Notes under the pieces: model-generated
The model's database searches: none
Told to the model about the DNA's origin: nothing
The model's input: the letters and a program-made list of their open reading frames with translations, nothing else
Shown: positions 2,286-41,974 of the stretch, in pieces
Layout of the letters: each line of letters starts with the position of its first letter
Position numbering within the stretch: the first letter of the stretch is position 1
Translations under genes and position numbers: made by a program
Assembly: GCA_026706845.1 (NCBI GenBank)
Contig: JAPOXY010000005.1
Location: forward strand, 42,492 to 95,518
DNA: 53,027 nucleotides
Source: Gemmatimonadota bacterium
Lineage (GTDB): Bacteria; Latescibacterota; UBA2968
Direction of reading: 5' to 3'

Positions 2286-2472
2286 AATGATGTTGTCCTT
2301 GGGAATGTGGAGGTTTGTGTTGTTTTGCGCGGCGGCGTTTCAGCCCCGCGATAGGCGCAATGGGTGACCGACGTTGTGTTGCGCCTGTATCACCATAGCG
2401 CGAACAATAAAGCGTGGAGAAGAACCACTGTCAAGGGAGATTTGGGGGTATTATTTTTTTAAGGAGATATGT

Positions 2473-3162
2473 GTGTCTATGAAACGATTTGTTTTTTTGG
2501 GAATATGTCTTTCGATAGCGAGTTGTGGAGGTAGCGGAATGGAAGATTTAAAACAAGCCAATGAGAAGTTGAACAATGAGAATCGGTCGTTGAAAAGCTC
2601 GTTGAACAAAGCGCAAAACCAGATTAAGCGAACTGGCGAGATCGGCAGCCGAATGCTATTTCTGGTAAATCAGATTCGGGGTGTGAAGGCGCGTATCGCG
2701 ACGAATATGGGCGATATCGAATTGAAGTTTCACCCCGAAAAAGCACCTGTTCATTGTCTGGCCTTTATCACCAGAGCAGAAAGCGGATTTTACGACAATA
2801 CCAAATTTCATCGCGTAATTAAAAATTTCATGATTCAGGGCGGCGACCCAAATTCAAAGGACGATGACCCGTCCGATGATGGAATGGGGGGACCCCTCGT
2901 GCATATCCCTCATGAATTTAATGACACAAAACATGTACCGGGAATTCTTTCCATGGCTCGCATTTCAGATGTGTCGGCAGGTGCCGGGTCACAATTTTTT
3001 ATTATGCATGGGACTGCGCCCAATTTGGACAATCAATATACTGCTTTTGGAGAAGTGACAAAGGGAATGGATGTGGTTGACAGTATCGCAATGGCCGAAA
3101 CCGCACCGGGGGATCGGCCTGTAAAATCTGTGGTGATCAAGCGCATAGATGTGTTTCGATAG
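2473..3162 (+). CDS. Cyclophilin-type peptidyl-prolyl isomerase, lipoprotein
   Basis: The protein has an N-terminal lipoprotein signal (basic Met-Lys-Arg, hydrophobic stretch, lipobox 'IASC' with Cys18), a short coiled coil (about residues 23-55), then a full cyclophilin domain beginning at 'GVKARIATNMGDIELKF'. Family motifs are present: 'FHRVIKNFMIQGGD' (catalytic Arg), 'SAGAGSQFFI' and 'NLDNQYTAFGEV'. It should catalyse cis-trans isomerisation of prolyl bonds in the periplasm, anchored to a membrane. The start is either GTG at 2473, 6 bases after AAGGAG (2461-2466), or ATG at 2479 two codons later. I prefer 2473 on spacing; the mature protein is the same. The frame is open back to 2374, but that part has no signal-peptide character. 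Confidence 0.93.
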   Translation: MSMKRFVFLGICLSIASCGGSGMEDLKQANEKLNNENRSLKSSLNKAQNQIKRTGEIGSRMLFLVNQIRGVKARIATNMGDIELKFHPEKAPVHCLAFITRAESGFYDNTKFHRVIKNFMIQGGDPNSKDDDPSDDGMGGPLVHIPHEFNDTKHVPGILSMARISDVSAGAGSQFFIMHGTAPNLDNQYTAFGEVTKGMDVVDSIAMAETAPGDRPVKSVVIKRIDVFR

Positions 3163-3477
3163 ACAGATGGGAAGATATGGACACTCATGGGAGGTGTCGC
3201 ATTGAATGTGGAAAAGTGGATAACATTATCAACAATTTAAATGGTTGATTTTATTGGATAAAAGTACTAAAATTATGCGAACTTTTGAAAGTTATCCACA
3301 TATTTTTCCACACTATTTTTCGGATTTCCCACCACTGAAATGCAGGCTGTTCAGGTTGTTTTTTCACCTATTTTGGAGGGATATTTCGCTTGCAACACCT
3401 GCAGAATTGGCCTATATTTGGATTTGTTCTAAACATTAGAAAATTCAACCAAAAACTTCACTCTCTGTGGGTTTACA
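3163..3477. other. AT-rich intergenic region with DnaA-box-like cluster
   Basis: The 315 bases between the cyclophilin and phosphatidyltransferase genes hold no credible gene. The stretch 3207-3312 carries the DnaA-box-like cluster listed separately. The remainder is AT-rich with no clear terminator. Confidence 0.6.
3207..3312. promoter_or_regulatory. Symmetric DnaA-box cluster around an AT-rich core (candidate origin or DnaA-controlled site)
   Basis: Four 9-mers fit or nearly fit the DnaA-box consensus TTWTNCACA. On the minus strand TTTTCCACA (3207-3215) and TTATCCACT (3215-3223, one mismatch). On the plus strand a perfect TTATCCACA (3292-3300) and TTTTCCACA (3304-3312). The two pairs mirror each other around about 68 bases of very AT-rich DNA. 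This is the kind of arrangement found in chromosomal origins, where DnaA opens an AT-rich element. No dnaA, dnaN, gidA or parAB is in the window, so an origin is only a candidate. A DnaA-regulated promoter is the alternative. Confidence 0.5.
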
Positions 3478-4071
3478 GTGATTGAAAAAGTTAAAGATGA
3501 TGTCGCCGAGATTTTGGGACCATCTACAGAATTTCTCGTAGAAAAGCGCTTTACGCCCGATTTGTTGACCATGATCGGGTTTGTTTTCAATATAGGTGCC
3601 GCGGTGCTCTTTGGCTTTGGATTGTATATGTGGGCCGGGCTGACGGTGCTTGTCGCGGGTGTTTTTGATTTCCTCGACGGGCAGGTGGCGCGCAAGGGCA
3701 AAACAGAGTCCAAATTTGGTGCGCTTCTCGATTCCACTGTTGATCGATATTCCGAAATTTTCATCTGGTTTGGCATTGCGATCAGTTTTATACGGGCTGA
3801 TGATCTCTGGACAAGCGCGGCGGTCTTTTTTGCACTGGCAGGATCTTTGATGGTGAGTTATGTACGCGCGCGCATTGAGGGGCTTGGAGCAGAGTGCAAA
3901 GTTGGATTTATGCAGCGGCCCGAGCGCGTTATTGCCATTGGCGCTGGCGGGGTGATCGTTCCTCTGATTGGGGATATTGGTCTGATCGTTGTGGTCTGGG
4001 CAATTGCTCTGTTGGGAAATTTTACTGCGCTGGAGCGGGTAATTCACTTTCGAAAGCTGACAAAATCATAG
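3478..4071 (+). CDS. CDP-alcohol phosphatidyltransferase family protein
   Basis: A 197-residue integral membrane enzyme with the complete CDP-alcohol phosphotransferase signature D-x2-DG-x2-AR-x8-G-x3-D-x3-D: Asp64, Asp67-Gly68, Ala71-Arg72, Gly81, Asp85, Asp89. About five or six membrane helices are visible. The family transfers a phosphatidyl group from CDP-diacylglycerol to an alcohol. The following 'SYVRARIEGLG' and 'QRPERVI' motifs recall the phosphatidylinositol-phosphate/archaetidylinositol-phosphate-synthase and PgsA-like branches, but the acceptor alcohol cannot be assigned. The only start upstream of the motif is GTG at 3478, with a weak ribosome site. An intrinsic terminator follows at 4099. 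Confidence 0.93.
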   Translation: MIEKVKDDVAEILGPSTEFLVEKRFTPDLLTMIGFVFNIGAAVLFGFGLYMWAGLTVLVAGVFDFLDGQVARKGKTESKFGALLDSTVDRYSEIFIWFGIAISFIRADDLWTSAAVFFALAGSLMVSYVRARIEGLGAECKVGFMQRPERVIAIGAGGVIVPLIGDIGLIVVVWAIALLGNFTALERVIHFRKLTKS

Positions 4072-4153: not shown

Positions 4154-4783
4154 ATGTCCGGTCTTTTCATATCATTAGAAGGCATTGATAAAAGCGGGAC
4201 GAGTACCCTGGCCAGATTGCTGGTTGATCACCTGAGAAGTAGCGGTCACGCTGTTGTATTTACTTATGAGCCAGGCAGTACAGAACTTGGAGGAGAAATT
4301 CGGCACCTGGTACTCGACTGGAAACCACAGGGCGAGATCGATGCAACTGCCGAGATGTTTTTATTTGCAGCAGATCGCGCACAGCATGTCAACGAAGTGA
4401 TTCGGCCTTCGCTGGATGCAAACAAAGTGGTGATTTCAGATCGGTATATCGATTCCACACTGGCTTATCAGGGCTATGGTCGCGGGTTGAATCTCAATGA
4501 CCTGAGAATGATTCAAAATGTGGCCACGGGTGGTTTGATGCCAGCCATAACGATCTGGTTAGATGTCGATTTACAGACTGCGCGAAAACGCGGTTGGGGA
4601 TCCGGAGCAGATCGCATTGAGAAGGAAGATGAAGCATTTTTTCAAAGGGTTCGACAGGGTTTTGCCGCGGGATATAAATCTGAACCCGATCGCATTTTCA
4701 GGGTTGATGGCTCTCAGCCCATAAGCGATGTATTTGAAGATGTTAAAAAGGTGGTTGTCGATCGCATGTCGGCGACTAAATAA
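4154..4783 (+). CDS. tmk: Thymidylate kinase (dTMP kinase) with an atypical P-loop
   Basis: A 209-residue protein of usual Tmk length. Family motifs are intact downstream: 'EPGSTELGGEIRHLVL' (EPGGT-like; Gly replaced by Ser), 'AADRAQHV', 'ISDRYIDSTLAYQG-GRGL' (DRY and the dTMP-binding Gln) and 'WLDVDLQTARKRG'. It should phosphorylate dTMP to dTDP with ATP. The P-loop reads E-G-I-D-K-S-G-T-S-T: Thr16 sits where nearly all P-loop kinases have the catalytic Lys (GK[ST]), and a Lys appears three residues earlier at 13. The codon is ACG; AAG would restore Lys. Whether Lys13 compensates cannot be told from sequence. The GC/AT texture is like its neighbours. The S41 protease gene follows closely. 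Confidence 0.9.
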   Translation: MSGLFISLEGIDKSGTSTLARLLVDHLRSSGHAVVFTYEPGSTELGGEIRHLVLDWKPQGEIDATAEMFLFAADRAQHVNEVIRPSLDANKVVISDRYIDSTLAYQGYGRGLNLNDLRMIQNVATGGLMPAITIWLDVDLQTARKRGWGSGADRIEKEDEAFFQRVRQGFAAGYKSEPDRIFRVDGSQPISDVFEDVKKVVVDRMSATK

Positions 4784-11016: not shown

Positions 11017-12465
11017 CTATTCATCTGACTCGTCGGGATAGTCGATCGACCATTTGCCGCGTCCGTCGCCAGAGGGTTCTTCCTTCCAGAGATCAAGGAA
11101 CTTCTCAGGCGCATTATGCTCCGTGAGATGCGCCATAAAGAGTTCATGCAATTCCTTGACGAGTTCCATGTTATCCGTAGCGATGTTGTTCTCCGCTATG
11201 GGGTCTGCGGGCAGGTCGAACAGTTCCGGTCTACCGTATTCACCGACAGGTGCGTATCCCCAGCGTTCGGTGACGAGGAACGGCGTTGTTGCGCGACGTG
11301 GTACACTCCCGTCCGGTGCGCCGATATGGCAACCTGTTACGGCGTATTCCCTGTGTTGTGTATCACCGTTAAGGAGAGCCTGTGTGAAGGAATGTCCCTC
11401 AAATGGTTTGGGTAGATCCAAGGTAACACCAGCCAATTCACAGAGTGTCGGCATAATATCCATCGGTTGCGCGATAAGATCGAGGCGTTGCCCGCACGGA
11501 ACATCTCCACCAGCAATCAGGAACATCTCATGGTTAATCTCTGGATACGTGGGCCAGTAGCGTGAATCGTCTGGATCGATGTTGGATTTACCCGTTCTAC
11601 TGTGTTCACCGATGGACATGCCGTGGTCGGAAAGCACAACGACGAGGGTATCATCCCATAACTCCAGATCTTCCACTTTCTGCAGAACCCGTCCGATGTG
11701 TCGGTCAATGAGTTCTGCCTCTGCTGCGTAGTGTGCCCAGAGGTTGTGCAATTCCGCATCCGTAAAGAGGGACGACAGACCGTAGTTCGGATGTATCATC
11801 GGTGGATCGGTATAATCTGGATCGTATCGTTTGACAAGGTATTCAGGTGGGTCCCACGGTTCGTGTGGATCGAAGAAGTCAACCCAGAGGAAAAAGGGAC
11901 CCGAGCGGTGGTTTTCCTCCAACCATCGAATTGTAGTCTCGGAAGTCCTACTGGAGAACGTTTCCGCCTCGTACTGGTAGTAGCGGTTCGTCCAGCGGTG
12001 CGTGTTCGGTAGGGTGTGTCCGCGGTATGATGGATGCGGTCGCGTCTTTTCATTCGGCATAACGATTTTTATTTCATCGTTGAGGTGGAGAAGCGGTTTG
12101 TCTCCTTCCTGTCCACGATGCTGGAAAGCGGCATCGAAACAGTGCTGGAACCGTGTGTTAAACAGGTGCGGGGTGTCACAGATGAGCTGCGTTGCGTATC
12201 CCTGCTCACTCAGAAGTTGCGCGGTGATGTTCCGTCCGCTCAGATCGATTGGCTGCCACGGGTAGTGGGGCCACCCGACTGTTCCCGTCATAATATCTGT
12301 GCGGTGCGGTACCGTCGGGAAACTACTCATATAGAATTTGTCAACAGCAGTCGCTCGTTCTGCCTCAAATTTATCGAGCATTGGCGTGCGAATCGGACGT
12401 CTCGCCCGCTCGCCGAGATTGTCATACCGAAAGGTATCGGTGATAAGTAAAACAATATTTTTCAT
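11017..12465 (-). CDS. Sulfatase-superfamily hydrolase with Thr at the nucleophile position
   Basis: A 482-residue member of the sulfatase/alkaline-phosphatase superfamily: first metal Asp in 'LLITDTFRYDNLG' (Asp10), second metal pair in 'VVLSDHGMSIGEH', and 'VDFFDPHEPWDPP'. The nucleophile motif reads Thr51-Val-Pro-His-Arg55 ('SFPTVPHRTDIMTG'), where a true sulfatase has C/S-x-P-S-R. Thr cannot become formylglycine, so it is unlikely to be a classical sulfatase. Related phosphatases and phosphodiesterases of this superfamily use Ser or Thr, so a phosphate or phosphonate ester, or a sulfate by another chemistry, is possible. No signal peptide is seen. It has a close-looking paralogue at 17135. 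Confidence 0.85.
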   Translation of the reverse strand: MKNIVLLITDTFRYDNLGERARRPIRTPMLDKFEAERATAVDKFYMSSFPTVPHRTDIMTGTVGWPHYPWQPIDLSGRNITAQLLSEQGYATQLICDTPHLFNTRFQHCFDAAFQHRGQEGDKPLLHLNDEIKIVMPNEKTRPHPSYRGHTLPNTHRWTNRYYQYEAETFSSRTSETTIRWLEENHRSGPFFLWVDFFDPHEPWDPPEYLVKRYDPDYTDPPMIHPNYGLSSLFTDAELHNLWAHYAAEAELIDRHIGRVLQKVEDLELWDDTLVVVLSDHGMSIGEHSRTGKSNIDPDDSRYWPTYPEINHEMFLIAGGDVPCGQRLDLIAQPMDIMPTLCELAGVTLDLPKPFEGHSFTQALLNGDTQHREYAVTGCHIGAPDGSVPRRATTPFLVTERWGYAPVGEYGRPELFDLPADPIAENNIATDNMELVKELHELFMAHLTEHNAPEKFLDLWKEEPSGDGRGKWSIDYPDESDE

Positions 12466-24281: not shown

Positions 24282-27200
24282 CTATTGAATCCAGTAGTGC
24301 TGGTGCTGGAATGGATAGCTCGGCAGCGAGATGCGGCGGCGCGTTTCTCCCGCAAATAGCCCGGGAAATGATACCGAAAGTCCCGCTTCATAAGCTTTTG
24401 CTACTGCTTCTATAAAACCGTTGTCTCCCAGACTCGACAATACAACGGGTGGATTCGCGTCGCCTTCTATCGGTCCCGGCACCGCACTCGGGCCGATCTC
24501 GATGAGTACATTGACTCCCAGGTTCACAAGCTTCTTCGCGCATTTGTCCAATGCCGCCGGTTCCTGTGCTTGCCGACGCCAATACGCCGCGTCGAGGACT
24601 TCGACGCCCCCTGTCACACTGCTCACAAGGACCAGAGATGGCGATGCGATTGTGACGTCTGTGAGGGTGGCTTCCAGACTGTCCGTGTCCCATTCCAGCG
24701 CAACCCGCAAGCCATCCTCCAGGCTAAAGACGCCCGCCGCCTGTGCCGCTGCAATTTCCCCTATACCGTGCCCGACCACCACGCTGGGCTGAATCCCCAC
24801 GCTTGACCACAGTGCCGTAAGCGCGGATCCCATTGCATAGATGGCAGGCAGGTCAGATAGATCACCGGTCTGACCGAACATCGCGTCCAGCAACGAGGTG
24901 TCCCGCTCTTCCCGAATTACTTTGTCGCAGCGATCCAGAACGGCTCGGACTACTGGCTCGCTTTCGTAGAGGTCTTTCCCCATGCCGATCCACTGGCTAC
25001 CCTGTCCGGTGTACGCGAAGGCGATTTTTGTCGCTGTGCGCGGTTCCGGTCTTTCTCCTGTTTCTGAGAGTGCCTGTAGTTTTTCTCGTAGAGACGCAAC
25101 ATCCTGGAATACGATGCCCGCGCGGTGGTCGAAATGGCTGCGTCCCACACCCGCTGTCCACGCCATGTCGGCAAGCAGGTCCACATCTTCGGAGGCAAGC
25201 TCTTCAAGCCAGGACAGATAGCGTTCTGTCAGATCCCGGAGAGCTTCATCGGATTTCCCCGATAGGGGCAGGAGCCGCGTCTGGCGCAGAGCAAACGCTT
25301 CTTCCTCGTCTGGGAGATCCAGAACGGATAGGGAAACGGGTTGTGCTGAACCCACAGGTGTTGTATCCGGGCTGTCATACCCCTCTACGACAACATGTGC
25401 GTTCGTGCCCGATATCCCGAAGGCGCTTACCCCGGCCCGCGGCGGTCGGTCGGGATGGCTCGGCCAGTCCGTCAATTCGGAAGTCACCTGTACCGGCAAC
25501 CGATCCCAGTCTATATGCGGACTCGGATTCTCAAAGTTCAGGTGCTTCGGTATCTTTCCTCGCTTCATCGCCAGCACTGCCTTGATCAGAGCCGCAACCC
25601 CGGCAGCTGGCTCCAGGTGGCCGATATTGGTCTTCACTGAGCCGATCAAAAGCGGGCGGTCTGCTTCGCGGCCCTTGCCGTAAACAGTAGCCGCTGCCTG
25701 AACTTCGATCGGATCGCCCAACTCCGACCCTCCTCCGTGGGCTTCCAGATAATCTACTTCTGATGGGGCAACGCCCGCTCGCGACAGCGCTTCTTCGATC
25801 ACCCGCTCCTGTGCCGGTCCATTTGGCACGGTGGGTCCTGCGCTGGCTCCGTTCTGGTTGACCGCAGACCCGCGGATCACGCCCCAGATGCGGTCGCCGT
25901 CGGCTTCTGCCTCGCTCAGCCGCTTGAGGACGACTATCCCGCAGCCCTCGCCGCGCGTGAAGCCGTCTGCAGAGGCATCGAAGGGCCTGCCCTGCCCCTC
26001 TCGTGACAACATGCCCAGGTCCGCCATTTCTCTGGTTAAATCAGGTGATAAAACTGCGTGTGTCCCTCCAACCAGAGCCATATCTACTTCGCCCTGCCGC
26101 AAACCCATCACTGCCTGGTGTACCGCGACCAGTGATGACGCGCAGTTGAGTTCCACCGGTATCGTCGGTCCCTCCAGACCAAGGAGGAAAGCAATTCGCC
26201 CGACCGTCATGCTCGCGGCAGTGCCCAGATAACTGATGCCGTAGTCGCTGGCAGTCATCAGGTCCCGGTATTCGCTGGTGGCGATGCCGGCATATAGCCC
26301 GGTGCGGCTGCCCTTCAATTCGTCTGGATCCATCCCCGCATCCTCGAGCGCTTGCCAGGTCGTCTCCAGCATCATGCGTTGCCGCGGATCCATAATGCGC
26401 GCCTCAATCGGCGAAATCCGAAAGAATCTCGCGTCAAATTGATCAATGCCCTCCACAAATCCGCCCCGGCGATAAGCTGCGTACTGGGGTGGAAGGTCTT
26501 TGGCGAGATTGTTCCATGAACCGGGATCCTGGCGTCCGTCGGTCACCGCGTCTTTGCCGTTTTCGAGCAGGTGCCAGAAGGTGGAAAGATCCGGAGCGCC
26601 GGGGAAGTGGCACGCCATGCCCACGATTGCAATACCGTCGTCCTCGCGCTGCACTGCCGTCTGCGGTTCTGGCTCGGGTTGCACCTGAGGCTGAGGGGCG
26701 GGCGCATCGCTGACTTCGCCGAGTTCCTCGACCAGATGGCGGGCGAGACTGGCGATGTCCGGGTAGTCAAATACCACGGTGTTGGGGACCACGTACTCAT
26801 CGGCAAATGCCCGGTTCAGACGATTCCGCAACTCTACCGCCATCAGTGAGTCCATTCCCAAATCGAAAAATCCCACTGTGGGTTCCGGCGCTGTCGGCAA
26901 CCTCAGCACTGCCTGTACCTCCTGCTGCAGGAAGGATACAAGCAGGTCCTCGGGTGCCGCTGCAGGTGCCTCTCGCAGTTGGGAAAGCAGGTCCTTTGAC
27001 GAGGCCGAGGCGTCGGCTTCGTCGTCCGCATCGGCGGACAGCAAGTCCTCCAGGAAGGGAGGACGATCTTCGACCGCCTCTTCGAACACTGACCAGTCCA
27101 TCGACATCACCACGGAAGTCGTGGCGTCCTGACGCACCAGTTGATCGAATGCCCGGATACCCTGTTGCGGGGTAAACCAGCGGCCGCCAAGCGCTGACCG

Positions 27201-30200
27201 CTGTTGGTCAATCCGCTCCCGCTGTTCCGCTGCTTCGCCGATCTCCGACCACGCTCCCCAGGCAATGGCCTGTCCGGGTAGCCCCATCGCGCGGCGGTGC
27301 CCGGCGAGTTGGTCCAGAAATGCATTGGCTGAGGCGTGGTTCGCCTGTCCCGGATTGCCCATGACGCCAACCCGGCTCGAGAAGAGGACAAACATGTCCA
27401 GGTCGCGATCCAAAGTCGCCCGATGCAGATGCCATGCGCCCAGTATCTTTGGCCAGAGCACGGTTTCGAATCGCTCCCAACTCTGGTTGGTCAGCGCGCC
27501 GTCCGACAGCACGCCCACGCTGTGGATCACGCCTCCGAGCGGCGGTAGCGTCTCATCTATCCGCGCCATCATCTCATCTATTGCGTCGGCATCTGTCACG
27601 TCTGCGATCTCTACCTGCACTTTCACGCCGCGTTCTCGCAGCCTGCGGATCACCTCCTCAGCCTCGGGGTCCGGTGCCCGGCGCCCGTTTAGCGCAATTG
27701 CGCCCGCACCGCGATCCGCCAGCCAGTCTGCTACGGCGCATCCGATCCCACCCAGACCGCCGGTCACCAGATAGGTGCGGTCCTGTCGCAACTTGCCTTT
27801 CAGGATCGGTGGCGTTGTTACGACGATTTTTCCTATGTGCCGGGCGGCGCGCATGAAGCTCAGCGCGGCTCCGGCTTCGGCGAGCGGCCACCTGCTGTGG
27901 GTGATCGTTTTCAGTTCTCTCGACGAAAGGCGCGCCATCACGTCCCGCAGGACTCTTCCCACCCACGCCGGATCGGTTTTTTTCAGAACATCCAGTTCCA
28001 GGATGTCGTAGGCCACATCCGGACGTACAGCCGCCATCTCTTCCTCGCTCAAGATGTCCCGCCGTGCCAATTCCACGAATCGACCGCCGTGCTTGAGGCA
28101 GGACAGGCTCGCGTCGATGAAGCCCTCTCCAGTCAGGCTGTTCAGCACCACATCGATGCCCTCTCCATTTGTAGCTTCGAGGATCTCTTTTCCAAACGCT
28201 GTCTGACGGCTGTCGAATATGTGTTCCACGCCCAGTGATCGGAGATAGGTCTGCTTCGGCTCGCTCGCGGTGGCAAAGACTTCTGCGCCTGCGGCTTGCA
28301 CCAGCTGAATGGCAGCCAATCCCACACCACCCGAACCCGCGTGAATCAGCACCCGATCGCCAGCCTCCAGTCCCGAGAGTTCGAAAGACAGCGCGGCGGA
28401 TACGAACGCGCTCGGCACTGTGGCAAGTCCAGTGACGGAGAAGCCCGATGGCGCGGGTGCTACCAGTTCCTCCCGCGTGACCATTTGCGCCCCGAACGCC
28501 CCAAATCCCAATCCGACCACATGGTCGCCGACGGAGATGGTCGAGACATCGGAACCCACCTCGAGGATATAACCGCACATCTCTCTGCCCAGATTTCCCT
28601 CCTCAATAAAGCCGAGTGAACGAAACACATCCCAGAAGTTGAGCCCGGAAGCCTCGACTGAGACGCGAACCTCGCGCGGTTCGAGAGAAGGTGCCGGTAG
28701 CGGCTGGACATACGGTCTCTCGAACACGCCGTCCGGATCCGGAGCCAGCACCCAGTCCGGCTCCTCAGGCAGAGACAGACGCTCCGCTTCGGTGCCCATC
28801 CGAATCAGGCGGGCAACCTGGCGACTTCCCGATCTGTATGCGATGTGATTCTCGGGATCGGGATACAGGAGTTCATTGACGAGGTCGGGTGCCGGTGCCA
28901 TATCGCCGGGGTCCAGATCGATCATCCTCGGCTGCAGATGCGCTGCTTCTCGGGCTACTGCTTTGCCGAAGCCCCAGAGTGCTGCGCCGGCGAGTTCTCC
29001 ACCGCGCTCCCGCTCTAACACCTGCGCTCCGCGCGTGATAAACCACACGCCCTTTTCAGGTGTCATATCGGAGTCGGCGACGGCCTGCACCAGCGCGAGT
29101 GCGCTCGCCCCCACTCGCCGTACATCCTCCGCCATTTCCCCGGTCGTTGCCTCTGCTCCATGGCCTTCCAGTGACGCGAGATGTACAATGCCGCTGAGTG
29201 GCATGTCGTCCGGTAGCTCCATCAGGAGTGATCCCCACGCCTCGCGCTGTTCCATATCTATGGTCTTTCTGATAATTTCAGAGTCTTCCTCTACCTGTGG
29301 GCCATCGCTACAGGCCAGCACGACCGTCTGGTTTCGCGCCGCGAGTTCTGACGCGAGTTCCTCTGCGGCTCTTCTCTGGTCTGCCGCCAGAATCCACGCG
29401 CCTCCCTGCTCTGTCACCACCGCTGGTCCCTGCGCCACGATTACGCCCTTATCCAGCGTCCTGGTGGCGTCGGACTCATCTACGCCCAGGACTTCTACTT
29501 CCTCGAAGCCCACGTTGCCGAGCGCTCGTCGCCATACCGAAGGCTCAGCCAGGGCGTGGTGCGGGCGGTAGCTGTCGGCAAATCGCCACCAGCCATCCAG
29601 TTGTCCGAAAGTCAGATCCATCCAACCCAGGCCGCTGAGGTTCTCGAGTGCGATTAACTGCCCCGATGGCGCGAGAAGGTCACGACAGTGTGCGAGTGTT
29701 TCCTCCAGGTATCGCGTGGCGTGTAGCACATTGGACGCGATCAGCAAGTCATAACTATGGGCGTCAAAGCCCTGTGCCACGGGATCCTTTTCGATATCCA
29801 GCGGACGGTATTCGATAGCCTCGTCTCCGAACCGCGCTTCGGCTTCCGCAAAGAAGCCCGCGGATATATCCGTGTACATGTAGTAGAACCGTCCGTCCGG
29901 AAGTTCTGGCAATACGGACGCGGTTGCCGAACCCGTACCCGCGCCGACCTCGATGACTCTGAGGCGCCGACCGTCTGGCAATGCGGACACGAGTGCTCGC
30001 ACCGCATCGCCCAGCATACTGTTCGCCGCTCGTGCCACAGGTGCCTTCAGATACAGATCGGCTGCGGTCGGTTCTCCGCTGCTGAACAGAAGGGTCAGCG
30101 GATCTTCGCGACCGCGGAGCACCTCGGCCAGAGCGCGGCCAGAGCGCCGAAACAGCCCGATCTCGGTCAGGCCGTGGGAGTGCAGGTCGGTCATCCGGGA

Positions 30201-33200
30201 GGCGAATTCCTCAAGGTCGCCCGGCATTTCTTCCGGCAGCGGATCTTCGGGTCCTATGACCACGACAAAGTTGTCGCCCTTCTCTTCCAATACCCCCGAT
30301 TTGGCGAGCATTTCGAGCATTCGGCGGAAGAGGCGCTTGTGCTCCTCGGTAACTTGCAGGCGTTGCCGCAAGTCTTCGGGATCCACGGTCTCGCCCGCCT
30401 TGCGCTGCCAACCCAGCTCTTTCAGGGTCGCGAGTGCGCGGGACCGGGACCACCGTTCCAGATCCGCGAGCAGAGCGTTCCTGCCTTCGGGATCGACGCC
30501 TGCATCTATCAGATAGTCGGAGAACAACTGCGAGCGGGCGGCAACAGTTGACGGACCCGGGAAGAAGTCCGCGGGTGTTATTCCAGGTGAAAGGTCGCGC
30601 TCGCGCCACATCACTTCGTACAGGAGATCCTTCACGCCTTCGACTGCCGAGAGCAGTGCCTCCTGCGTCGCCCGCTTCACCGTGTACCCACTCAGGCGGC
30701 CAAGTGGAACGCCGTTCAGGTCGTAGATGTTCAGTTCACCGCTCAGGACTTCCGGAGGTTCGTCCGTTTCCTGGGAAGCCTCATTCAAACGCACGTGACA
30801 GACAATCCGATCCGGTAGCTGTCCCGTCAGCCACAGCCGCTCCCAGCCGAATGGCAGATATGTGGTTTCGCCCCCGGCTCCCTCCAGGTTTCGCGCCGCG
30901 CCCACGACTTGAAAGCAACCGTCCAGGACGAGCGGATGGACATCCAGCCCGTGCCTGGTCAGAGTTTCGGGCAGAGACACCTCTCCCAATGCCTCGCCCG
31001 GGCGGGACCAGACGTTCCCCAGCGTGCGGAAGAATGGACCGAGATCGACCCCGGTACTCGCCCTGTGGCGGTAGTAGCCCGCCACATCTACTGGTGAGAG
31101 GCTGGCCTTGAGACTTTCCAGATCAATCCTCTCACCTGCTTCCGGTATAGGAACACCAGACGACACGCGACCTTCCACGTGTACTGTCCATTCCCCTTCA
31201 CTACCCTTGCTGAAGATCTGGACTTCGCGCGACGACGCCTGCTCAGAGGCGTCGAGCACGACCTGCATCTTTCGTCCCTCTTCATCCGCCCCGTCCTCCT
31301 CTTCGAAGACCATCGCGTTGTGCAACTGGAAATCCTCCACGACTACTGATTCGCTCTCCTCGAGGAACGCTGCCGCGCACGCCATGGCCCCGTAGAGCGC
31401 GCCGGGTGCCACGATCCGGCCAAACACCTTGTGGTCGTTCAGATAGGATGGATCCGAGGGGAATACTTCCGTCTCAAAGGTGATTTCTCCGCGGGCTGAT
31501 TCGTGCCGAGCACCCAGCAGCGGATGGTCGGAACTCCGGCGCTGACGCTTCGGTGGCTCAAGCCAGTGGTGATTGCGCTGGAATGGATAGCTGGGCAGCG
31601 AGATCCGCCGCCGTGTCTCTCCTGCGAAGAGTCCCGCGAAACGAATCGGGAATCCCGCCTGGTACGCCTCTGCGACCGATCCCACGAAACCGTCGGTGCT
31701 TTCGGACTCTGATGGCGGAGAGAGGCTCGACAGCACTACTGGCACCGGTGTCTGTGGCGACGCTGGCCAGGCGGAGGCCGCCATTGGCGCCAGCACGGAT
31801 CGCGGGCCAATCTCCAGTACCACATCGACCCCGAGATCCGATAGTGTTTTCACCCCCTGGGCGAATGCCACTGGCTCCCGAGCATGCCGTCTCCAGTAGG
31901 CTCCGTTTTGCGACTGGCCCGGTTCTACGGCTCTACCCGTCAGGTTGCTGACCACAGTAAGGGAAGGCGGCTGGATCTCCACACCATTGAGGGACGCTTC
32001 CAGTTCGTCCAGGATGGGTTCAACAAGGGCGCTGTGGAATGCTTTGGCAGTGTTCAGCCGCCTGACCCGTATGCCCTCCTGTTCGAATCGCTTCGAGATC
32101 GCTTCAATTTCCGCAATCGGGCCGCTGACCACCTGGTGGTTCCCGTTGTATCCCGAGATGCTCAACCCGGCGCCAGAGGAGGCTGCGTTTACCGTCTCCA
32201 CCGCCACCGCCACGCGATCGGCCGGTGCGAAGACCGCGGCCATGCCGCCCTCTTCCATCTGCGACATCAGCGCGCCGCGCACGGCGGCGAACCGCATCCC
32301 GTCTTCAAGGCTGAACACGCCTGCTGCCTGCGATGCCGCGAGTTCTCCGATGCTGTGTCCGACGACCACATCGGGACGGATGCCGACGCTCGACCAGAGC
32401 GCTGTCAGTGCGCACTCCAGCGCGTAGAGGGCAGGCTGTTCCCAAGCCGTGTCGCCGAGGTCCTCTTCACCTTCGGACCGACCGAACATCACGTCCAGCA
32501 GCGAGGAACCTCTCTCCTGAAGAAGGACTGCCTCGCAGCGGTCCAGGACTGCCCGCGCCACTGGCTCGCTTTCGTAGAGCACCTGTCCCATGCCGACCCA
32601 TTGGCTTCCCTGTCCGGTGTAGGCGAACGCCGCCCGGGTCGGTGTTCGCGATGATGCGCCCCCATCTGCTTCAGTTAGACTACGGAGGCGCTCTCGCAGC
32701 GATTCCGCGTCGTGGAAGACGATGCCCGCGCGGTGATCGAAGTGGCTCCGGCCCACGCCCGCTGTCCACGCCATGTCTGCAAGTATCGCCTCTTCTTCTT
32801 CGGCGTGTTCGTCGAGCCATGAAAGGTACCGCTTCCCCAGGTCCCGAAGTGCCCCATCGGATTTTCCCGACAGCGGAAGGAGACGGGTCCTTCGCGGCTG
32901 GACTTCCTGCTCCGGCAGCGGGAGATCCCCAACGGTCGCTGGCAGCGAGATTGCCACTGGCTTCGCGGAGCCAACAGCAGCGGATGCACCATCCGAAGCA
33001 CGGTATTCCTCCATTACAATGTGGGCATTCGTCCCGGAGATCCCGAAGGAGTTTACCCCCGCGAGTCGCGATCGATCAGGACGGTGCGGCAAGTCCATCA
33101 TCGACGATGTCACCCGCAATGGTAGGCTGTCCCAGTCGAGACTCGGGTTGGGATTATGGAAATGGAGGTGTTTTGGAATCACACCCCGCTTCAGTACCAA

Positions 33201-34331
33201 CGCGGCTTTGATCACTCCGGCTACGCCTGCGGCTGACTCCAGATGGCCGACATTGGTCTTCACGGAACCGATGAGAAGGGGTCGGTCAGTTGATCGTCCC
33301 TTCCCGTAAACATTGGCCACAGCGTTGATCTCGATGGGATCACCCACCGTCGTTCCGGTCCCGTGCGCCTCCAGGTAATCTACGTCCGATGCGGGGATTC
33401 CCGCGTCGGACAGCGCAGTCTCGATCACTTCTTCCAGCGCGGGTGTGTTCGGCACGGTTAGCCCTGTACTGGCTCCGCCGTGGTTCACCGCCGCGCCCCG
33501 AATCACCGCCCAGATCCGATCGCCGTCCGCCTCCGCCTCATCGAGCCGCTTGAGGATGATGACCCCACAGCCCTCACCTCGCACGTAACCGTTTGCGGAC
33601 GCGTCAAAGGTTTTGCACTGCCCATCCGGAGACAGCATCATCGCATCCGCGCGCAGTTCGTATATGCGACCGTTCAGAATCGCCTGTACGCCGCCTGCGA
33701 TGGCAAGATCTGCTTTGCCCTGCTGCAGGTCTGCCACCGCGTCGTGGACTGATACCATGGATGACGCGCACGCGGCATCTACTGCCTTTGCCGGTCCCCT
33801 TAGCCCCAGCACGAAAGAGACCCGTCCGCTGGCGCCGTTGAGGTTGGTGCCGCTGAGGGCGTAGAGACAACTGGCAGCCTCGGCGGGTTTGCTCGAGTCC
33901 ACGACCAGCATTCGGTATTCGTCGTTGCTGATCCCGGTGTACACGCCGGTGCGGCTCTCTCTCAACCCCTCTGGATCGATTCCCGCGTCCTCAAGAGCCT
34001 CCCAACTCGTCTCCAGCATCATTCGCTGCTGCGGATCCAGTAGTTCTGCCTCCACCGGGGAAATCCGGAAGAAGGCGTCGTCGAACTGGTCGATATCGTC
34101 AACGAAGGCACCGAAACGGCAACCTTCGCTCTGTACCGTGTCGTCGGGAAAGAGCTGGCTCCACCGCCCTACGCCTGAGCCCGGGACGCCTTCGCTGACG
34201 GCATTCCCGCCGGCTTCGAGCAGACGCCAGAAGGCAGAGATGCCCGGCGCGCCGGGGAATCGGCAGGCCATACCTATGATCGCTATTGGTTGGTCTGATA
34301 CGGAAGGACCGAAAGATTTGTCCGGTTTCAT
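24282..34331 (-). CDS. Type I polyketide synthase: KS-AT-DH-MT-ER-KR-ACP then KS-AT remnant
   Basis: A 3349-residue megasynthase. Module 1: KS (Cys188, His323, His363), AT (Ser660 in GHSIG; His766 in 'AFHS', the malonyl-type motif), DH (His967 in H-x3-G-x4-P, Asp1137), C-methyltransferase (1461-1467 'EVGAGTG'), ER ('HAGSGGVG' 1997-2004), KR ('GGLGGIG' 2191-2197; Ser2318/2319; His2332 where Tyr is usual), ACP (Ser2495). Module 2: KS (Cys2730, His2865, His2905), then AT with GHGIG at 3187-3191 (Ser replaced by Gly3189) lacking about 87 residues including the catalytic His; it stops without ACP or thioesterase. It should make a reduced, alpha-methylated chain from malonyl units. GGAGG lies 8 bases before ATG 34331. 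The DNA looks more G+C-rich than the flanks by eye. Confidence 0.95.
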   Translation of the reverse strand: MKPDKSFGPSVSDQPIAIIGMACRFPGAPGISAFWRLLEAGGNAVSEGVPGSGVGRWSQLFPDDTVQSEGCRFGAFVDDIDQFDDAFFRISPVEAELLDPQQRMMLETSWEALEDAGIDPEGLRESRTGVYTGISNDEYRMLVVDSSKPAEAASCLYALSGTNLNGASGRVSFVLGLRGPAKAVDAACASSMVSVHDAVADLQQGKADLAIAGGVQAILNGRIYELRADAMMLSPDGQCKTFDASANGYVRGEGCGVIILKRLDEAEADGDRIWAVIRGAAVNHGGASTGLTVPNTPALEEVIETALSDAGIPASDVDYLEAHGTGTTVGDPIEINAVANVYGKGRSTDRPLLIGSVKTNVGHLESAAGVAGVIKAALVLKRGVIPKHLHFHNPNPSLDWDSLPLRVTSSMMDLPHRPDRSRLAGVNSFGISGTNAHIVMEEYRASDGASAAVGSAKPVAISLPATVGDLPLPEQEVQPRRTRLLPLSGKSDGALRDLGKRYLSWLDEHAEEEEAILADMAWTAGVGRSHFDHRAGIVFHDAESLRERLRSLTEADGGASSRTPTRAAFAYTGQGSQWVGMGQVLYESEPVARAVLDRCEAVLLQERGSSLLDVMFGRSEGEEDLGDTAWEQPALYALECALTALWSSVGIRPDVVVGHSIGELAASQAAGVFSLEDGMRFAAVRGALMSQMEEGGMAAVFAPADRVAVAVETVNAASSGAGLSISGYNGNHQVVSGPIAEIEAISKRFEQEGIRVRRLNTAKAFHSALVEPILDELEASLNGVEIQPPSLTVVSNLTGRAVEPGQSQNGAYWRRHAREPVAFAQGVKTLSDLGVDVVLEIGPRSVLAPMAASAWPASPQTPVPVVLSSLSPPSESESTDGFVGSVAEAYQAGFPIRFAGLFAGETRRRISLPSYPFQRNHHWLEPPKRQRRSSDHPLLGARHESARGEITFETEVFPSDPSYLNDHKVFGRIVAPGALYGAMACAAAFLEESESVVVEDFQLHNAMVFEEEDGADEEGRKMQVVLDASEQASSREVQIFSKGSEGEWTVHVEGRVSSGVPIPEAGERIDLESLKASLSPVDVAGYYRHRASTGVDLGPFFRTLGNVWSRPGEALGEVSLPETLTRHGLDVHPLVLDGCFQVVGAARNLEGAGGETTYLPFGWERLWLTGQLPDRIVCHVRLNEASQETDEPPEVLSGELNIYDLNGVPLGRLSGYTVKRATQEALLSAVEGVKDLLYEVMWRERDLSPGITPADFFPGPSTVAARSQLFSDYLIDAGVDPEGRNALLADLERWSRSRALATLKELGWQRKAGETVDPEDLRQRLQVTEEHKRLFRRMLEMLAKSGVLEEKGDNFVVVIGPEDPLPEEMPGDLEEFASRMTDLHSHGLTEIGLFRRSGRALAEVLRGREDPLTLLFSSGEPTAADLYLKAPVARAANSMLGDAVRALVSALPDGRRLRVIEVGAGTGSATASVLPELPDGRFYYMYTDISAGFFAEAEARFGDEAIEYRPLDIEKDPVAQGFDAHSYDLLIASNVLHATRYLEETLAHCRDLLAPSGQLIALENLSGLGWMDLTFGQLDGWWRFADSYRPHHALAEPSVWRRALGNVGFEEVEVLGVDESDATRTLDKGVIVAQGPAVVTEQGGAWILAADQRRAAEELASELAARNQTVVLACSDGPQVEEDSEIIRKTIDMEQREAWGSLLMELPDDMPLSGIVHLASLEGHGAEATTGEMAEDVRRVGASALALVQAVADSDMTPEKGVWFITRGAQVLERERGGELAGAALWGFGKAVAREAAHLQPRMIDLDPGDMAPAPDLVNELLYPDPENHIAYRSGSRQVARLIRMGTEAERLSLPEEPDWVLAPDPDGVFERPYVQPLPAPSLEPREVRVSVEASGLNFWDVFRSLGFIEEGNLGREMCGYILEVGSDVSTISVGDHVVGLGFGAFGAQMVTREELVAPAPSGFSVTGLATVPSAFVSAALSFELSGLEAGDRVLIHAGSGGVGLAAIQLVQAAGAEVFATASEPKQTYLRSLGVEHIFDSRQTAFGKEILEATNGEGIDVVLNSLTGEGFIDASLSCLKHGGRFVELARRDILSEEEMAAVRPDVAYDILELDVLKKTDPAWVGRVLRDVMARLSSRELKTITHSRWPLAEAGAALSFMRAARHIGKIVVTTPPILKGKLRQDRTYLVTGGLGGIGCAVADWLADRGAGAIALNGRRAPDPEAEEVIRRLRERGVKVQVEIADVTDADAIDEMMARIDETLPPLGGVIHSVGVLSDGALTNQSWERFETVLWPKILGAWHLHRATLDRDLDMFVLFSSRVGVMGNPGQANHASANAFLDQLAGHRRAMGLPGQAIAWGAWSEIGEAAEQRERIDQQRSALGGRWFTPQQGIRAFDQLVRQDATTSVVMSMDWSVFEEAVEDRPPFLEDLLSADADDEADASASSKDLLSQLREAPAAAPEDLLVSFLQQEVQAVLRLPTAPEPTVGFFDLGMDSLMAVELRNRLNRAFADEYVVPNTVVFDYPDIASLARHLVEELGEVSDAPAPQPQVQPEPEPQTAVQREDDGIAIVGMACHFPGAPDLSTFWHLLENGKDAVTDGRQDPGSWNNLAKDLPPQYAAYRRGGFVEGIDQFDARFFRISPIEARIMDPRQRMMLETTWQALEDAGMDPDELKGSRTGLYAGIATSEYRDLMTASDYGISYLGTAASMTVGRIAFLLGLEGPTIPVELNCASSLVAVHQAVMGLRQGEVDMALVGGTHAVLSPDLTREMADLGMLSREGQGRPFDASADGFTRGEGCGIVVLKRLSEAEADGDRIWGVIRGSAVNQNGASAGPTVPNGPAQERVIEEALSRAGVAPSEVDYLEAHGGGSELGDPIEVQAAATVYGKGREADRPLLIGSVKTNIGHLEPAAGVAALIKAVLAMKRGKIPKHLNFENPSPHIDWDRLPVQVTSELTDWPSHPDRPPRAGVSAFGISGTNAHVVVEGYDSPDTTPVGSAQPVSLSVLDLPDEEEAFALRQTRLLPLSGKSDEALRDLTERYLSWLEELASEDVDLLADMAWTAGVGRSHFDHRAGIVFQDVASLREKLQALSETGERPEPRTATKIAFAYTGQGSQWIGMGKDLYESEPVVRAVLDRCDKVIREERDTSLLDAMFGQTGDLSDLPAIYAMGSALTALWSSVGIQPSVVVGHGIGEIAAAQAAGVFSLEDGLRVALEWDTDSLEATLTDVTIASPSLVLVSSVTGGVEVLDAAYWRRQAQEPAALDKCAKKLVNLGVNVLIEIGPSAVPGPIEGDANPPVVLSSLGDNGFIEAVAKAYEAGLSVSFPGLFAGETRRRISLPSYPFQHQHYWIQ

Positions 34332-35600: not shown

Positions 35601-38438
35601 ATGACTCGTATTTTATCCCCCACCCTGTACGCGATATTCTTTCTTTCGGGTGCAGCTGCTCTGCTGTTTGAAACCCTGTGGTTTCGCCAGGCAGGGCTCA
35701 CTTTTGGCAATAGTATTACGGCATCCAGTCTGGTGCTGGCCGCATTTATGGGTGGTCTGGCTCTGGGCAATGGTCTATCTGCGCGTTTGGGAAGGCGCGT
35801 CGAGCGTCCCGTGCGCGTGTATGCGTTGTTGGAAATTGCCATTGCCCTGTCGGGCGTGGTTATCGTTTGGATGTTGCCCACGCTTACCGCTGCGCTCTCT
35901 GCTTTTCTCGCATCTTTTTTTGACCAACCATTGTTGCTCAACGCGCTGCGCCTGGTACTGAGTTTTGCCCTTCTCATTGTGCCGACTACTGCGATGGGCG
36001 CTACTCTGCCCATTTTAGTCAGGGCATTGCGGGTGCGAGACGACGCTTCTATATCTGACGATGAAGGTGGTTTTGGGATCGCGCTCGGTCGGCTCTATGC
36101 GTGTAATACGCTGGGTGCCGTGGTCGGCGCGGTCGCGGGAGAGGTTGCTATTATCGAATGGGTTGGGGTTTTGGGCACGGCGTGGGTCGCCGCGCTGTTG
36201 GATCTCATCGCCGCTGGGGGTGCGCTGGGTATTGCGCGCTATTTCTCTGGCGCGCGCGAGGCTCTTCCCCCAAAATTGGACGGGTTTCCCAACTTTCGGG
36301 CCAGGTGCTTGCTGGGTGCTGCCTTTCTATCGGGGGCTGTTCTGCTGGCGCTGGAGGTGGTCTGGTTCCGCTTTCTCCACCTTTTTGTGCCCGCGACGAC
36401 GCTTGCTTTTGCCGTGATGCTGTCTGTGGTGCTCACGGGTATTGGTGTGGGAGGTGGGTTGGCCGCCCGATGGCTGCGACACAATGCCGGGGCATTTCGC
36501 GTGCTTCCCGCCCTCGCTCTCGGTTCCGGGATACTCACGGTTGTCACTTATCTGACTTTTGTCTATGTGGTGACGCCTTTTGGAACGGGATATATTGGCA
36601 ATATATCGCAAATCCTGACGCTGTCTCTGGCTCTGATGTTTCCCGTATCCCTTCTCTCTGGCATCCTGTTTACCTTCACCGGTGCCGCGCTCAATCGCCA
36701 TATCCAGCCCGATACCCGGGCCGCTGGCTTGCTCACGCTTGCCAATACCATCGGTGCTGGTCTGGGCGCTCTTATTGCGGGTTTTGGGCTGTTGCCGCTT
36801 TTGGGCATGGAGGTCGCTACGTTTGTTCTGGCGATTTGCTACGGCGTTGTCGCTTTTCTCGTTTCAGGTCTGCGCCGGAAGTACCGGGTGTATTATGTTC
36901 TCTTTGCCGCGTACCTCTTGTTTCTGGTCCTTTTTCCCTTTGGCCGAATGGAGAATACGTATTTCACCTTTGTCGCACAGCGCTTTGGCTATCCCGATAC
37001 ATGGAAAATCGCCGGTACCCGCGAAGGACGCACGGAGACGATTATCTATTTGGAAGGTGCTTATTTTGGCGTGCCGGTTGCGTACCAGATGCTTACGGAT
37101 GGCTTTTCAATGGCGTCCAGTAGTCTGGTCAATCGCCGCTATATGAAGCTCTATGTGTACTGGCCCATGGCTCTTCACCCCGATTTCAAAAGTGCACTGC
37201 TGATCAGCTTTGGCGTGGGTTCTACAGCCAAAGCACTTACGGATACACGGTCGCTCGAGCATATTGACGTGGTCGATATCTCCAGCGATGTGCTCGAGAT
37301 GAATCGCATTGTGTATCCCGACCCGGATACGCAACCTTTGAAAGATCCCCGGGTGCGCGTGCATATTGACGATGGGCGCTATTTTTTGCAGACGACGCAA
37401 AACCGCTACGATCTGATTACCAGCGAGCCGCCGCCGCCGAGGCAGGCCGGCGTGGTCAATCTCTACTCGCAGGAGTATTTCCAACTGATCTACGACCGTC
37501 TTTCAGATGGGGGGTTATGCACGTACTGGCTTCCGGTTCACCATCTCAAACCCGAGGACACAAAGGCTATTATCCGCGCGTTTTGCAATGTTTTTGAGGA
37601 CGCCTCTCTTTGGGCTGGGGCGGGTTTTAACTGGATGCTCGCTGGCTCTCGCAATGCCTCTCATTCCCCCTCTGAGGTCTCGTTTAGCCGACAGTGGCGC
37701 GATCCGGTCGTGCGTTCCGAACTCCTCGCCCTCGGTCTGGAGCGCCCCGAGCAACTCGGTGCTCTTTTTATGTCTGACGCCGACCACCTCAACGCGCTCA
37801 CGCGCGATACCCCACCGCTGGTGGATAATTATCCCAAACGCCTTTCCGTGGGGTTTTTCAACCGCGAACCCCATCGGGCATTTTACGACCGCTGGATGAA
37901 TCCCCTGCTCACCCGCGAGCGCTTTGAAAAGAGTGCTTTTATTCGCAATGCATGGCCCTCTGGCATGCGGATGCGCACACTCGATTATTTTGAAGCGCAG
38001 CGCCTTCTCGAGGCTTCGCTGGTTTCCCAAGCTGACGAAACGCGCGATGAGGGCACTCGCATCGCCATGCTCCACACGCTTCTCACGCAGACCGATTTGC
38101 GGACGCTCCCGCTATGGCATCTCCAGATTCAGGACGATTTGCTCTATGCGGTTGATACCCGCCTGAAGAAAGGCGATGAGGAAAAGCCGTATCTCCCCTA
38201 CTTATCTGCACGCGCCCTGGCGGAGCGCGACTATACTCTTGCCGCACGGTATTACGCCCAGTCTTCCGATCCGACTCTGCGCTATTTATATCTCTACGCG
38301 CTGTGTATGGCGGGTGATACTGCGGAGGTCGAACGTCTTGTCGCTGGCTGGAAAGACCAGATTCTGCGCGATACGACACAGCGTTTCTACTATCAATGGC
38401 TCGCCCAGACTTTTGGTCTCGATATTCCCGTTCCGTGA
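35601..38438 (+). CDS. Membrane protein fused to a spermidine-synthase-like domain
   Basis: A 945-residue protein. Residues about 1-440 are a polytopic membrane region (start 'FFLSGAAALLFETLWFRQAG', the usual mark of the fused MFS/spermidine-synthase family). About 520-700 is a spermidine-synthase-like Rossmann fold ('SFGVGSTAKAL', 'VDISSDVLEMNR', 'DDGRYFLQTT', 'LYSQEYFQLIYDRLSDGGL'). The catalytic Asp segment reads 'ITSEPPPP', so polyamine synthesis is doubtful. The last 220 residues are helical. Function unknown; perhaps a SAM- or nucleotide-binding membrane enzyme. ATG 35601 has no strong ribosome site. It begins a plus-strand run of related-looking genes. Confidence 0.88.
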   Translation: MTRILSPTLYAIFFLSGAAALLFETLWFRQAGLTFGNSITASSLVLAAFMGGLALGNGLSARLGRRVERPVRVYALLEIAIALSGVVIVWMLPTLTAALSAFLASFFDQPLLLNALRLVLSFALLIVPTTAMGATLPILVRALRVRDDASISDDEGGFGIALGRLYACNTLGAVVGAVAGEVAIIEWVGVLGTAWVAALLDLIAAGGALGIARYFSGAREALPPKLDGFPNFRARCLLGAAFLSGAVLLALEVVWFRFLHLFVPATTLAFAVMLSVVLTGIGVGGGLAARWLRHNAGAFRVLPALALGSGILTVVTYLTFVYVVTPFGTGYIGNISQILTLSLALMFPVSLLSGILFTFTGAALNRHIQPDTRAAGLLTLANTIGAGLGALIAGFGLLPLLGMEVATFVLAICYGVVAFLVSGLRRKYRVYYVLFAAYLLFLVLFPFGRMENTYFTFVAQRFGYPDTWKIAGTREGRTETIIYLEGAYFGVPVAYQMLTDGFSMASSSLVNRRYMKLYVYWPMALHPDFKSALLISFGVGSTAKALTDTRSLEHIDVVDISSDVLEMNRIVYPDPDTQPLKDPRVRVHIDDGRYFLQTTQNRYDLITSEPPPPRQAGVVNLYSQEYFQLIYDRLSDGGLCTYWLPVHHLKPEDTKAIIRAFCNVFEDASLWAGAGFNWMLAGSRNASHSPSEVSFSRQWRDPVVRSELLALGLERPEQLGALFMSDADHLNALTRDTPPLVDNYPKRLSVGFFNREPHRAFYDRWMNPLLTRERFEKSAFIRNAWPSGMRMRTLDYFEAQRLLEASLVSQADETRDEGTRIAMLHTLLTQTDLRTLPLWHLQIQDDLLYAVDTRLKKGDEEKPYLPYLSARALAERDYTLAARYYAQSSDPTLRYLYLYALCMAGDTAEVERLVAGWKDQILRDTTQRFYYQWLAQTFGLDIPVP

Positions 38439-40985: not shown

Positions 40986-41969
40986 ATGTCCGTTGAAAAA
41001 AAACATACACTCTGGGTCGTTACGCCCGTTGTTGATCTTTCCTGTATTACCTTGGGCTGGTTGCTTTTCTTTTTTGCCCCCTACCTGTTTCCCAAATACT
41101 TCGATACCATCCGCATTATCTCTGTTACGTTTCTTTTTGCGACGCACCGGTACTTCACGTTTCTGCTGGTCTATTTAGATCGCGCTGAGTTTAACCGCGC
41201 GCGCGTCCTTTATACGCTTATTCCCGTTCTCTGTTTTGTCTTTGTGGGGCTCTGTTATTTTTTTCGCATTGATGAGCCCGAGATGTTCGCGTTCTGGTAC
41301 CTTTTTAACTATTTTCACTTTGTTCGTCAGAAATACGGCATTCTCCGCATCTATTCCGGCAAAGCCCGATGGGGTCACAAGCGCCTGGATGAATGGACGA
41401 TGTATCTCTGGGGGCTGGCTGGGTTCTTTTACCTTTTCGGTTCTGAAGCCGATGTCAAGGTCATGCACTATCTTCGCAATTTGCTCGACTTCACGCCGCC
41501 GCTCCTGATCTCCCACATTTTATACGGTCTGGCTATTCTGATCACTCTGGCCTGGCTCATCTATGAATTTCGCAGCACTCAGGGTGTCAGTGTCCCCAAA
41601 TTGCTCTTTTTTGCCTCTGTGGTCTTCCTCTATGGGATTGGTCCTACCCTGTCGGCTGGCGCTATCTATATTGCCACGAGTATTAATCACGCTTCCGAAT
41701 ATATCGCTCTGGTCGCGCTTACGATTAAAAACAAAGTCCGCACTTCGGCTCTCGATGCGCCGCTTCTCAATAGGGCCGCCACCCATATTGTACGCAATAC
41801 CTTTCTCTTTACCGCTGTTATCTGTGGGATCCTCTATGGTCTTTACGCCTATTCCCTTTTTGCCTTCCTCTTCTTTGCCTACGGCACCTCATTTGCCCAC
41901 TTTGTTCTGGATGGTTTGATCTGGAAACTCCGTCGGCCCAAAGTCGCACGCGAAGTTGGAACAGCGTAG
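40986..41969 (+). CDS. Polytopic membrane protein with conserved histidines, unknown
   Basis: A 327-residue protein with about eight membrane helices. Not recognised. Histidines sit in or next to the membrane segments: 'FATHRYFTFLLVYLDR', 'YFHFVRQKYG', 'ATSINHASEYIALV' and 'SFAHFVLDGLIWKLRRP'. Such spacing is seen in membrane metal enzymes (for example the Brp/Blh carotene oxygenases), but homology is not established. ATG 40986 is preceded by GGAGGGG; the longer frame back to 40860 lies inside the propeller gene. It meets the second GWxTD gene end to end (stops 5 bases apart). Confidence 0.85.
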   Translation: MSVEKKHTLWVVTPVVDLSCITLGWLLFFFAPYLFPKYFDTIRIISVTFLFATHRYFTFLLVYLDRAEFNRARVLYTLIPVLCFVFVGLCYFFRIDEPEMFAFWYLFNYFHFVRQKYGILRIYSGKARWGHKRLDEWTMYLWGLAGFFYLFGSEADVKVMHYLRNLLDFTPPLLISHILYGLAILITLAWLIYEFRSTQGVSVPKLLFFASVVFLYGIGPTLSAGAIYIATSINHASEYIALVALTIKNKVRTSALDAPLLNRAATHIVRNTFLFTAVICGILYGLYAYSLFAFLFFAYGTSFAHFVLDGLIWKLRRPKVAREVGTA

Positions 41970-41974
41970 CTGCC

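Follow-up and report, generated by a model that had tools for sequence, protein, structure and literature searches.

A conserved second DnaA-box cluster in the origin region of Latescibacterota that is probably not oriC itself

Background

Does a dense group of DnaA boxes lying several kilobases from dnaA mark the replication origin, or does it serve a neighbouring gene or some other purpose? The question is raised by positions 3207-3312 of a 53,027-nucleotide stretch (the window, that is, the whole stretch of DNA analysed), which corresponds to bases 42492-95518 of the 95.5-kb contig C5 in a draft genome of 5.46 Mb. On the contig the group occupies C5:45698-45803. This genome is a MAG of the uncultured phylum Latescibacterota; its close relatives are named Latescibacterota MAGs, and such relatives are mostly marine or sponge-associated. 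An earlier note on this DNA had suggested that the group could be oriC or a DnaA-controlled region for the genes beside it. Our analysis indicates that it is probably a second, origin-linked DnaA-box cluster and not oriC itself. DnaA-regulating sites away from oriC have been characterised in very few species.

Genomic context

The dnaA gene (C5:35987-37399, minus strand) is located 8.3 kb to the left of the cluster. Rightward of dnaA lie rpmH (an assignment read from the sequence), rnpA, the yidC region, mnmE, rsmG, an HTH gene, a fumarylacetoacetate hydrolase gene and the gene for a cyclophilin-type peptidyl-prolyl isomerase (2374-3162, plus strand), which is missing at this place in family f4. 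The cluster follows. Beyond it are a CDP-alcohol phosphotransferase gene (CDP-alcohol phosphatidyltransferase, here called the lipid gene; 3478-4071, plus strand), whose product has as its nearest families the phosphatidylinositol-phosphate synthases but falls below their cut-offs, and the thymidylate kinase gene tmk (4154-4783, plus strand). The lipid gene is preceded by a promoter (3389-3418, plus strand) that is conserved in relatives, with a -35 element TTGCAA at 3390-3395 and a -10 element TATATT at 3413-3418.

Elsewhere in the window, positions 24282-34331 (minus strand) encode a modular polyketide synthase of 3349 aa (two KS, AT, DH, methyltransferase, ER, KR and ACP) with a G+C content of about 61%, above that of its surroundings, and positions 48796-52992 (minus strand) encode a 1398-aa protein composed largely of leucine-rich repeats. 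Strong AT skew occurs at 36001-37000 (-0.45) and 41001-42000 (-0.35), in a gene with a spermine synthase domain (35601-38438) and near 41 kb, respectively.

Layout of the cluster

A box scan of the 106 bp at 3207-3312 identifies three perfect TTWTCCACA boxes and two with one mismatch. The left pair, on the minus strand, consists of an outer box TTTTCCACA (3207-3215), which is kept in all 11 genus members, in tandem with TTATCCACT (3215-3223; one mismatch). The right pair, on the plus strand, consists of an inner box TTATCCACA (3292-3300) and an outer TTTTCCACA (3304-3312); both pairs also appear in the genus alignment. They point outward from a core of 68 bp (3224-3291, no strand) with 76% A+T. 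The earlier note had described four boxes in opposite-facing pairs around about 68 AT-rich bases, exactly as we find them, and had overlooked a fifth, weaker box, TTATCAACA (3226-3234, plus strand), which overlaps a palindrome inside the left edge of the core.

The AT-richness of the core is equalled by 0.16% of the 68-bp windows of the contig, and the core overlaps its third least stable 80-bp window. The 53-kb window has three perfect TTWTCCACA sites, and each of them falls within the cluster. When the window was shuffled 300 times with dinucleotide counts preserved, no shuffle gave more than three boxes with at most one mismatch per 110 bp (five observed) or more than two strict boxes (three observed), which bears out the earlier claim that four boxes in some 106 bp are unlikely by chance. 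The tandem TTATCCAC-N(0-8)-TTTTCCACA is present in exactly two copies, one on each strand, in this genome and in seven of eight same-genus relatives, and these copies always form the mirror pair. It is absent from G008, the eighth relative searched, in which the inner right box reads TTATCAACA.

Two matches to the IHF consensus WATCAANNNNTTR (PMC10380432), which is that of E. coli and may not be that of the host, overlap and form the palindrome of the core: TATCAACAATTTA (3227-3239, plus strand) and AATCAACCATTTA (3238-3250, minus strand), the second being present in all eight genus members checked. The whole 95.5-kb contig contains three matches, two of them in the core. The palindrome is restricted to its own genus, is not found in other families and may be nothing but weak DnaA boxes. 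The genome carries four genes of the HU/IHF family.

Conservation across the phylum

In the genus alignment the box pairs are 93-99.5% conserved (the left pair has a mean column conservation of 99.5%), whereas the spacer reaches about 70% and the right half of the core 74%. Few non-coding parts in the genus are as well conserved as the pairs and the promoter. All 11 members keep the pairs 67-68 bp apart, with core identity down to 52%. In g13, a genus of another family, the boxes face inward and the spacing is again fixed, at 115-116 bp, with an intervening identity down to 42%. Box orientation varies by family, being outward in the present genome and inward in f4. A spacing that stays constant while the sequence between diverges suggests a protein complex with a definite shape.

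The cluster also recurs at greater distance; conservation of the boxes in relatives was one of the checks named in the earlier note. We considered the 27 genomes of the phylum in which dnaA and the place of the second cluster share one stretch. In these, the mean is 4.6 boxes (at most one mismatch) in the 470 bp that precede the gene following the second cluster, compared with 0.22 per window in 701 control windows between dnaA and the second cluster, none of which contains at least four. These genomes also have box groups 3' of dnaA, except G006, whose contig ends before that place.

The downstream gene changes between lineages. In G041, a genome from a different family that lies outside the class, the mnmE-mnmG-rsmG block has four perfect boxes on its 3' side, before a class I (E/Q) tRNA-synthetase gene, probably glnS. 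This genome has three box groups (L246:2588-2879, 4561-4581 and 11532-11744), located 3' of dnaA, in the dnaA-rpmH spacer and 3' of rsmG before the tRNA-synthetase gene. Family f7 has weaker boxes of the type TTWTCAACA in an AT-rich stretch between rsmG and rsmI. Near dnaA and 3' of rsmG, the box-like sites of this family (L275, L276, L277 and L280; in G048 and G049, the dnaA loci) read TTTTCAACA or TTATCAACA and not TTWTCCACA, and the sequences suggest a shifted DnaA-box consensus.

No box cluster was found 3' of rsmG in families f6, f9 and f10, and it is therefore not universal in the phylum. In family f10 (G056 and G057; L255 and L256), stretches of 18-20 kb contain no DnaA-box cluster near dnaA, and the origin of this family may have moved away from the gene. 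Before the lipid gene, G011 has no boxes and G018 has just two weak ones. These absences indicate that the second cluster is dispensable or movable. Its rigid layout seems to have been retained through much of the history of the Latescibacterota.

Two clusters and the location of oriC

A second place on the contig is richer in boxes. The intergenic stretch between dnaA and an HhH-GPD glycosylase gene (C5:35355-35986; dnaN takes the place of the latter in family f4) lies outside the window and contains, at C5:35491-35779, a cluster with five strict boxes. It includes TTTTCCACAGAATTCACAGCGTTATTATTATTATC, a DnaA box followed by a spacer and four trios. In B. subtilis and H. pylori, it is at such a unit that DnaA unwinds the DNA (PMC8235120). 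We defined a BUS-like unit as a box, up to 22 nt and four YT[A/T] trios; a pattern with at least five trios missed even the dnaA site and was relaxed for this reason. The one match on the 95.5-kb contig, TTTTCCACAGAATTCACAGCGTTATTATTATTA at C5:35771, belongs to the dnaA-adjacent cluster, and this pattern search found no DnaA-trio or BUS unit beside the boxes at 3207-3312. Read by eye, relatives have similar trio runs at the corresponding site; those of family f4 are on the opposite strand and have dnaN on their far side. Since the box, spacer and trio unit occurs on this contig only at the dnaA-adjacent site, we take C5:35355-35986 as the likely unwinding origin and 3207-3312 as the second cluster. 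These two are the only places where boxes cluster among the 100 listed of the 184 strict boxes of the genome. No convincing parS sites (for ParB) were seen near the origin, and our search for literature on the oriC of Latescibacterota returned nothing relevant.

GC skew was examined in several relatives, in all of which the 10-kb distance between the clusters is beyond its resolution. In the closed genome G008 the cumulative minimum over 200 kb lies at 4,703,238, between dnaA and the lipid gene, as would be expected if the origin were here; in G007 the local minimum is about 70 kb off and does not fit. In G037 and G061 the skew climbs steadily rightward from the dnaA-lipid gene interval and is roughly flat leftward, with slightly lower values 75-90 kb away. 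Sampled over the whole chromosomes of G007 and G008, skew is too noisy and affected by apparent rearrangements, the global minimum of G007 being at ~6.19 Mb.

The main rival reading is that both clusters are halves of one bipartite origin, with DnaA interactions looping out the 10 kb between them, as occurs across dnaA in B. subtilis and H. pylori. Two clusters with a trio or unwinding unit in just one of them is the defining layout of such origins (PMC8235120, PMC4285127) and is what we observe. The two clusters are also conserved together, and the skew of G008 changes within the dnaA-lipid gene interval. However, in the bipartite origins that have been described the span is at most about 2 kb and the spacer is usually dnaA (PMC4285127), whereas here several genes, and not dnaA alone, occupy a spacer of 6-12 kb (about 10 kb in this genome, 6-7 kb in f4) whose length differs among families. 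No literature was found that ties DnaA boxes to rsmG or mnmG in a bipartite origin. We regard this reading as unlikely.

Relation to the lipid gene promoter

The cluster could instead make the promoter at 3389-3418 responsive to DnaA, tying the inositol-lipid/tmk operon to the cell cycle. The well-conserved -35/-10 promoter starts 77 bp downstream of the last box, and tmk supplies dTTP. DnaA is, moreover, a known transcription factor (PMC8203912). Against this, the distance and orientation of the boxes relative to the promoter vary between genera, and the downstream gene is a tRNA synthetase gene in G041 and rsmI in f7. G011 has kept the promoter without the boxes, and in G021 the lipid gene is elsewhere, beside an ino1-like gene (read from sequence), with no boxes before it. 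Different downstream genes and variable spacing and orientation make it unlikely that the lipid gene is the reason for the existence of the cluster. The box positions in G041, f7, G021 and G011 indicate that the cluster tracks a place in the origin domain, where the mnmE-rsmG block ends, and not one operon. We therefore consider control of this promoter an improbable explanation of the cluster as a whole; of the earlier proposal of a DnaA-controlled region, a possible side-effect on the adjacent promoter is what survives.

The other suggestion of the earlier note, that 3207-3312 is oriC, in which case the AT-rich core would be the unwinding element, is very unlikely. Several intergenic DnaA boxes (five in 106 bp), as expected of an oriC, are indeed present, and the core ranks among the three 80-bp windows of lowest stability on the contig, together with the dnaA-rpmH spacer and the dnaA-adjacent cluster. 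The local skew minimum of the contig (searched over 30-60 kb) lies at 44.0 kb, closer to this cluster (45.7 kb) than to that beside dnaA (35.5 kb), but such a minimum is displaced by gene orientation and a distance of 10 kb is too short for it to decide. The DnaA-trio unit and the larger number of boxes are at the dnaA-adjacent site. The note was thus right about the origin region (dnaA-rpmH-rnpA-yidC-mnmE-rsmG directly to the left, the skew minimum of G008 and the conserved boxes) and probably wrong about oriC itself. That the boxes arose by chance or are a relic without present function is hardly credible and, as regards chance, rejected, since the shuffles, the conservation and, most strongly, the fixed spacing all oppose it, even though G011 and three families lack the cluster.

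Proposed role

We favour the reading, with a probability of roughly 0.55, that 3207-3312 is the second DnaA-box cluster of the Latescibacterota origin domain, about 10 kb (6-7 kb in f4) from a dnaA-adjacent oriC, and that it tunes the timing of initiation. The boxes have a fixed geometry, are conserved, keep their position in the origin domain and are independent of the downstream gene. DnaA binding, bending of the core and an effect on initiation are what we infer in addition. In this model both outward-facing pairs would be occupied by DnaA, and a bend in the palindromic, AT-rich core, whose length is fixed, would bring the two DnaA groups together in one nucleoprotein complex; one of the four HU/IHF-type proteins may cause the bend. 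The cluster would be duplicated very soon after the origin fires and, because it is copied so early, would determine when initiation occurs by retaining or inactivating DnaA, as do the B. subtilis clusters and E. coli datA. The restriction of the palindrome to one genus, the absence of the cluster from several lineages and the family-dependent orientation speak against this role.

More broadly, and as a tentative suggestion, much of the phylum might have a long-range two-site origin with an unwinding site beside dnaA and, 6-12 kb from it, a rigidly spaced DnaA complex that either reaches the unwinding site by looping or inactivates DnaA, which would make it a counterpart of datA outside the proteobacteria. 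With position and geometry conserved between families while the neighbouring genes change, long-range control of an origin becomes testable by comparison and by DnaA binding in vitro. The second cluster also predicts where replication starts in these genomes.

Comparison with known systems

In B. subtilis, DnaA-box clusters (DBCs) outside oriC delay initiation, and deletion of six of them leads to early initiation (PMC5295017). One of the strongest DnaA-binding regions of this species lies upstream of trmE/mnmE near dnaA (PMC4447404). The cluster described here similarly lies outside yet close to oriC and beside a gene promoter, and some DBCs, too, are near the dnaA/rpmH-mnmE block. It differs in being located 3' of rsmG or before the following gene, in its mirror layout and fixed spacing, and in being single: besides oriC it is the one cluster among the 100 of 184 strict boxes listed, as opposed to six in B. 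subtilis. The DBCs show strong DnaA binding (PMC4447404), whereas our cluster is known from its sequence.

The datA locus of E. coli consists of DnaA boxes and an IHF site near oriC, in which spacing matters (PMC10380432). It promotes the hydrolysis of ATP bound to DnaA, acts with real IHF and differs from our cluster in its set of boxes and in its genomic place; the IHF-consensus match here is predicted and confined to one genus. Within that genus, the core has two overlapping matches to the E. coli consensus and the box pairs a constant spacing of 67-68 bp, and a likeness to datA may be seen in non-coding DnaA boxes near an origin, placed at constrained spacing around an IHF-consensus site.
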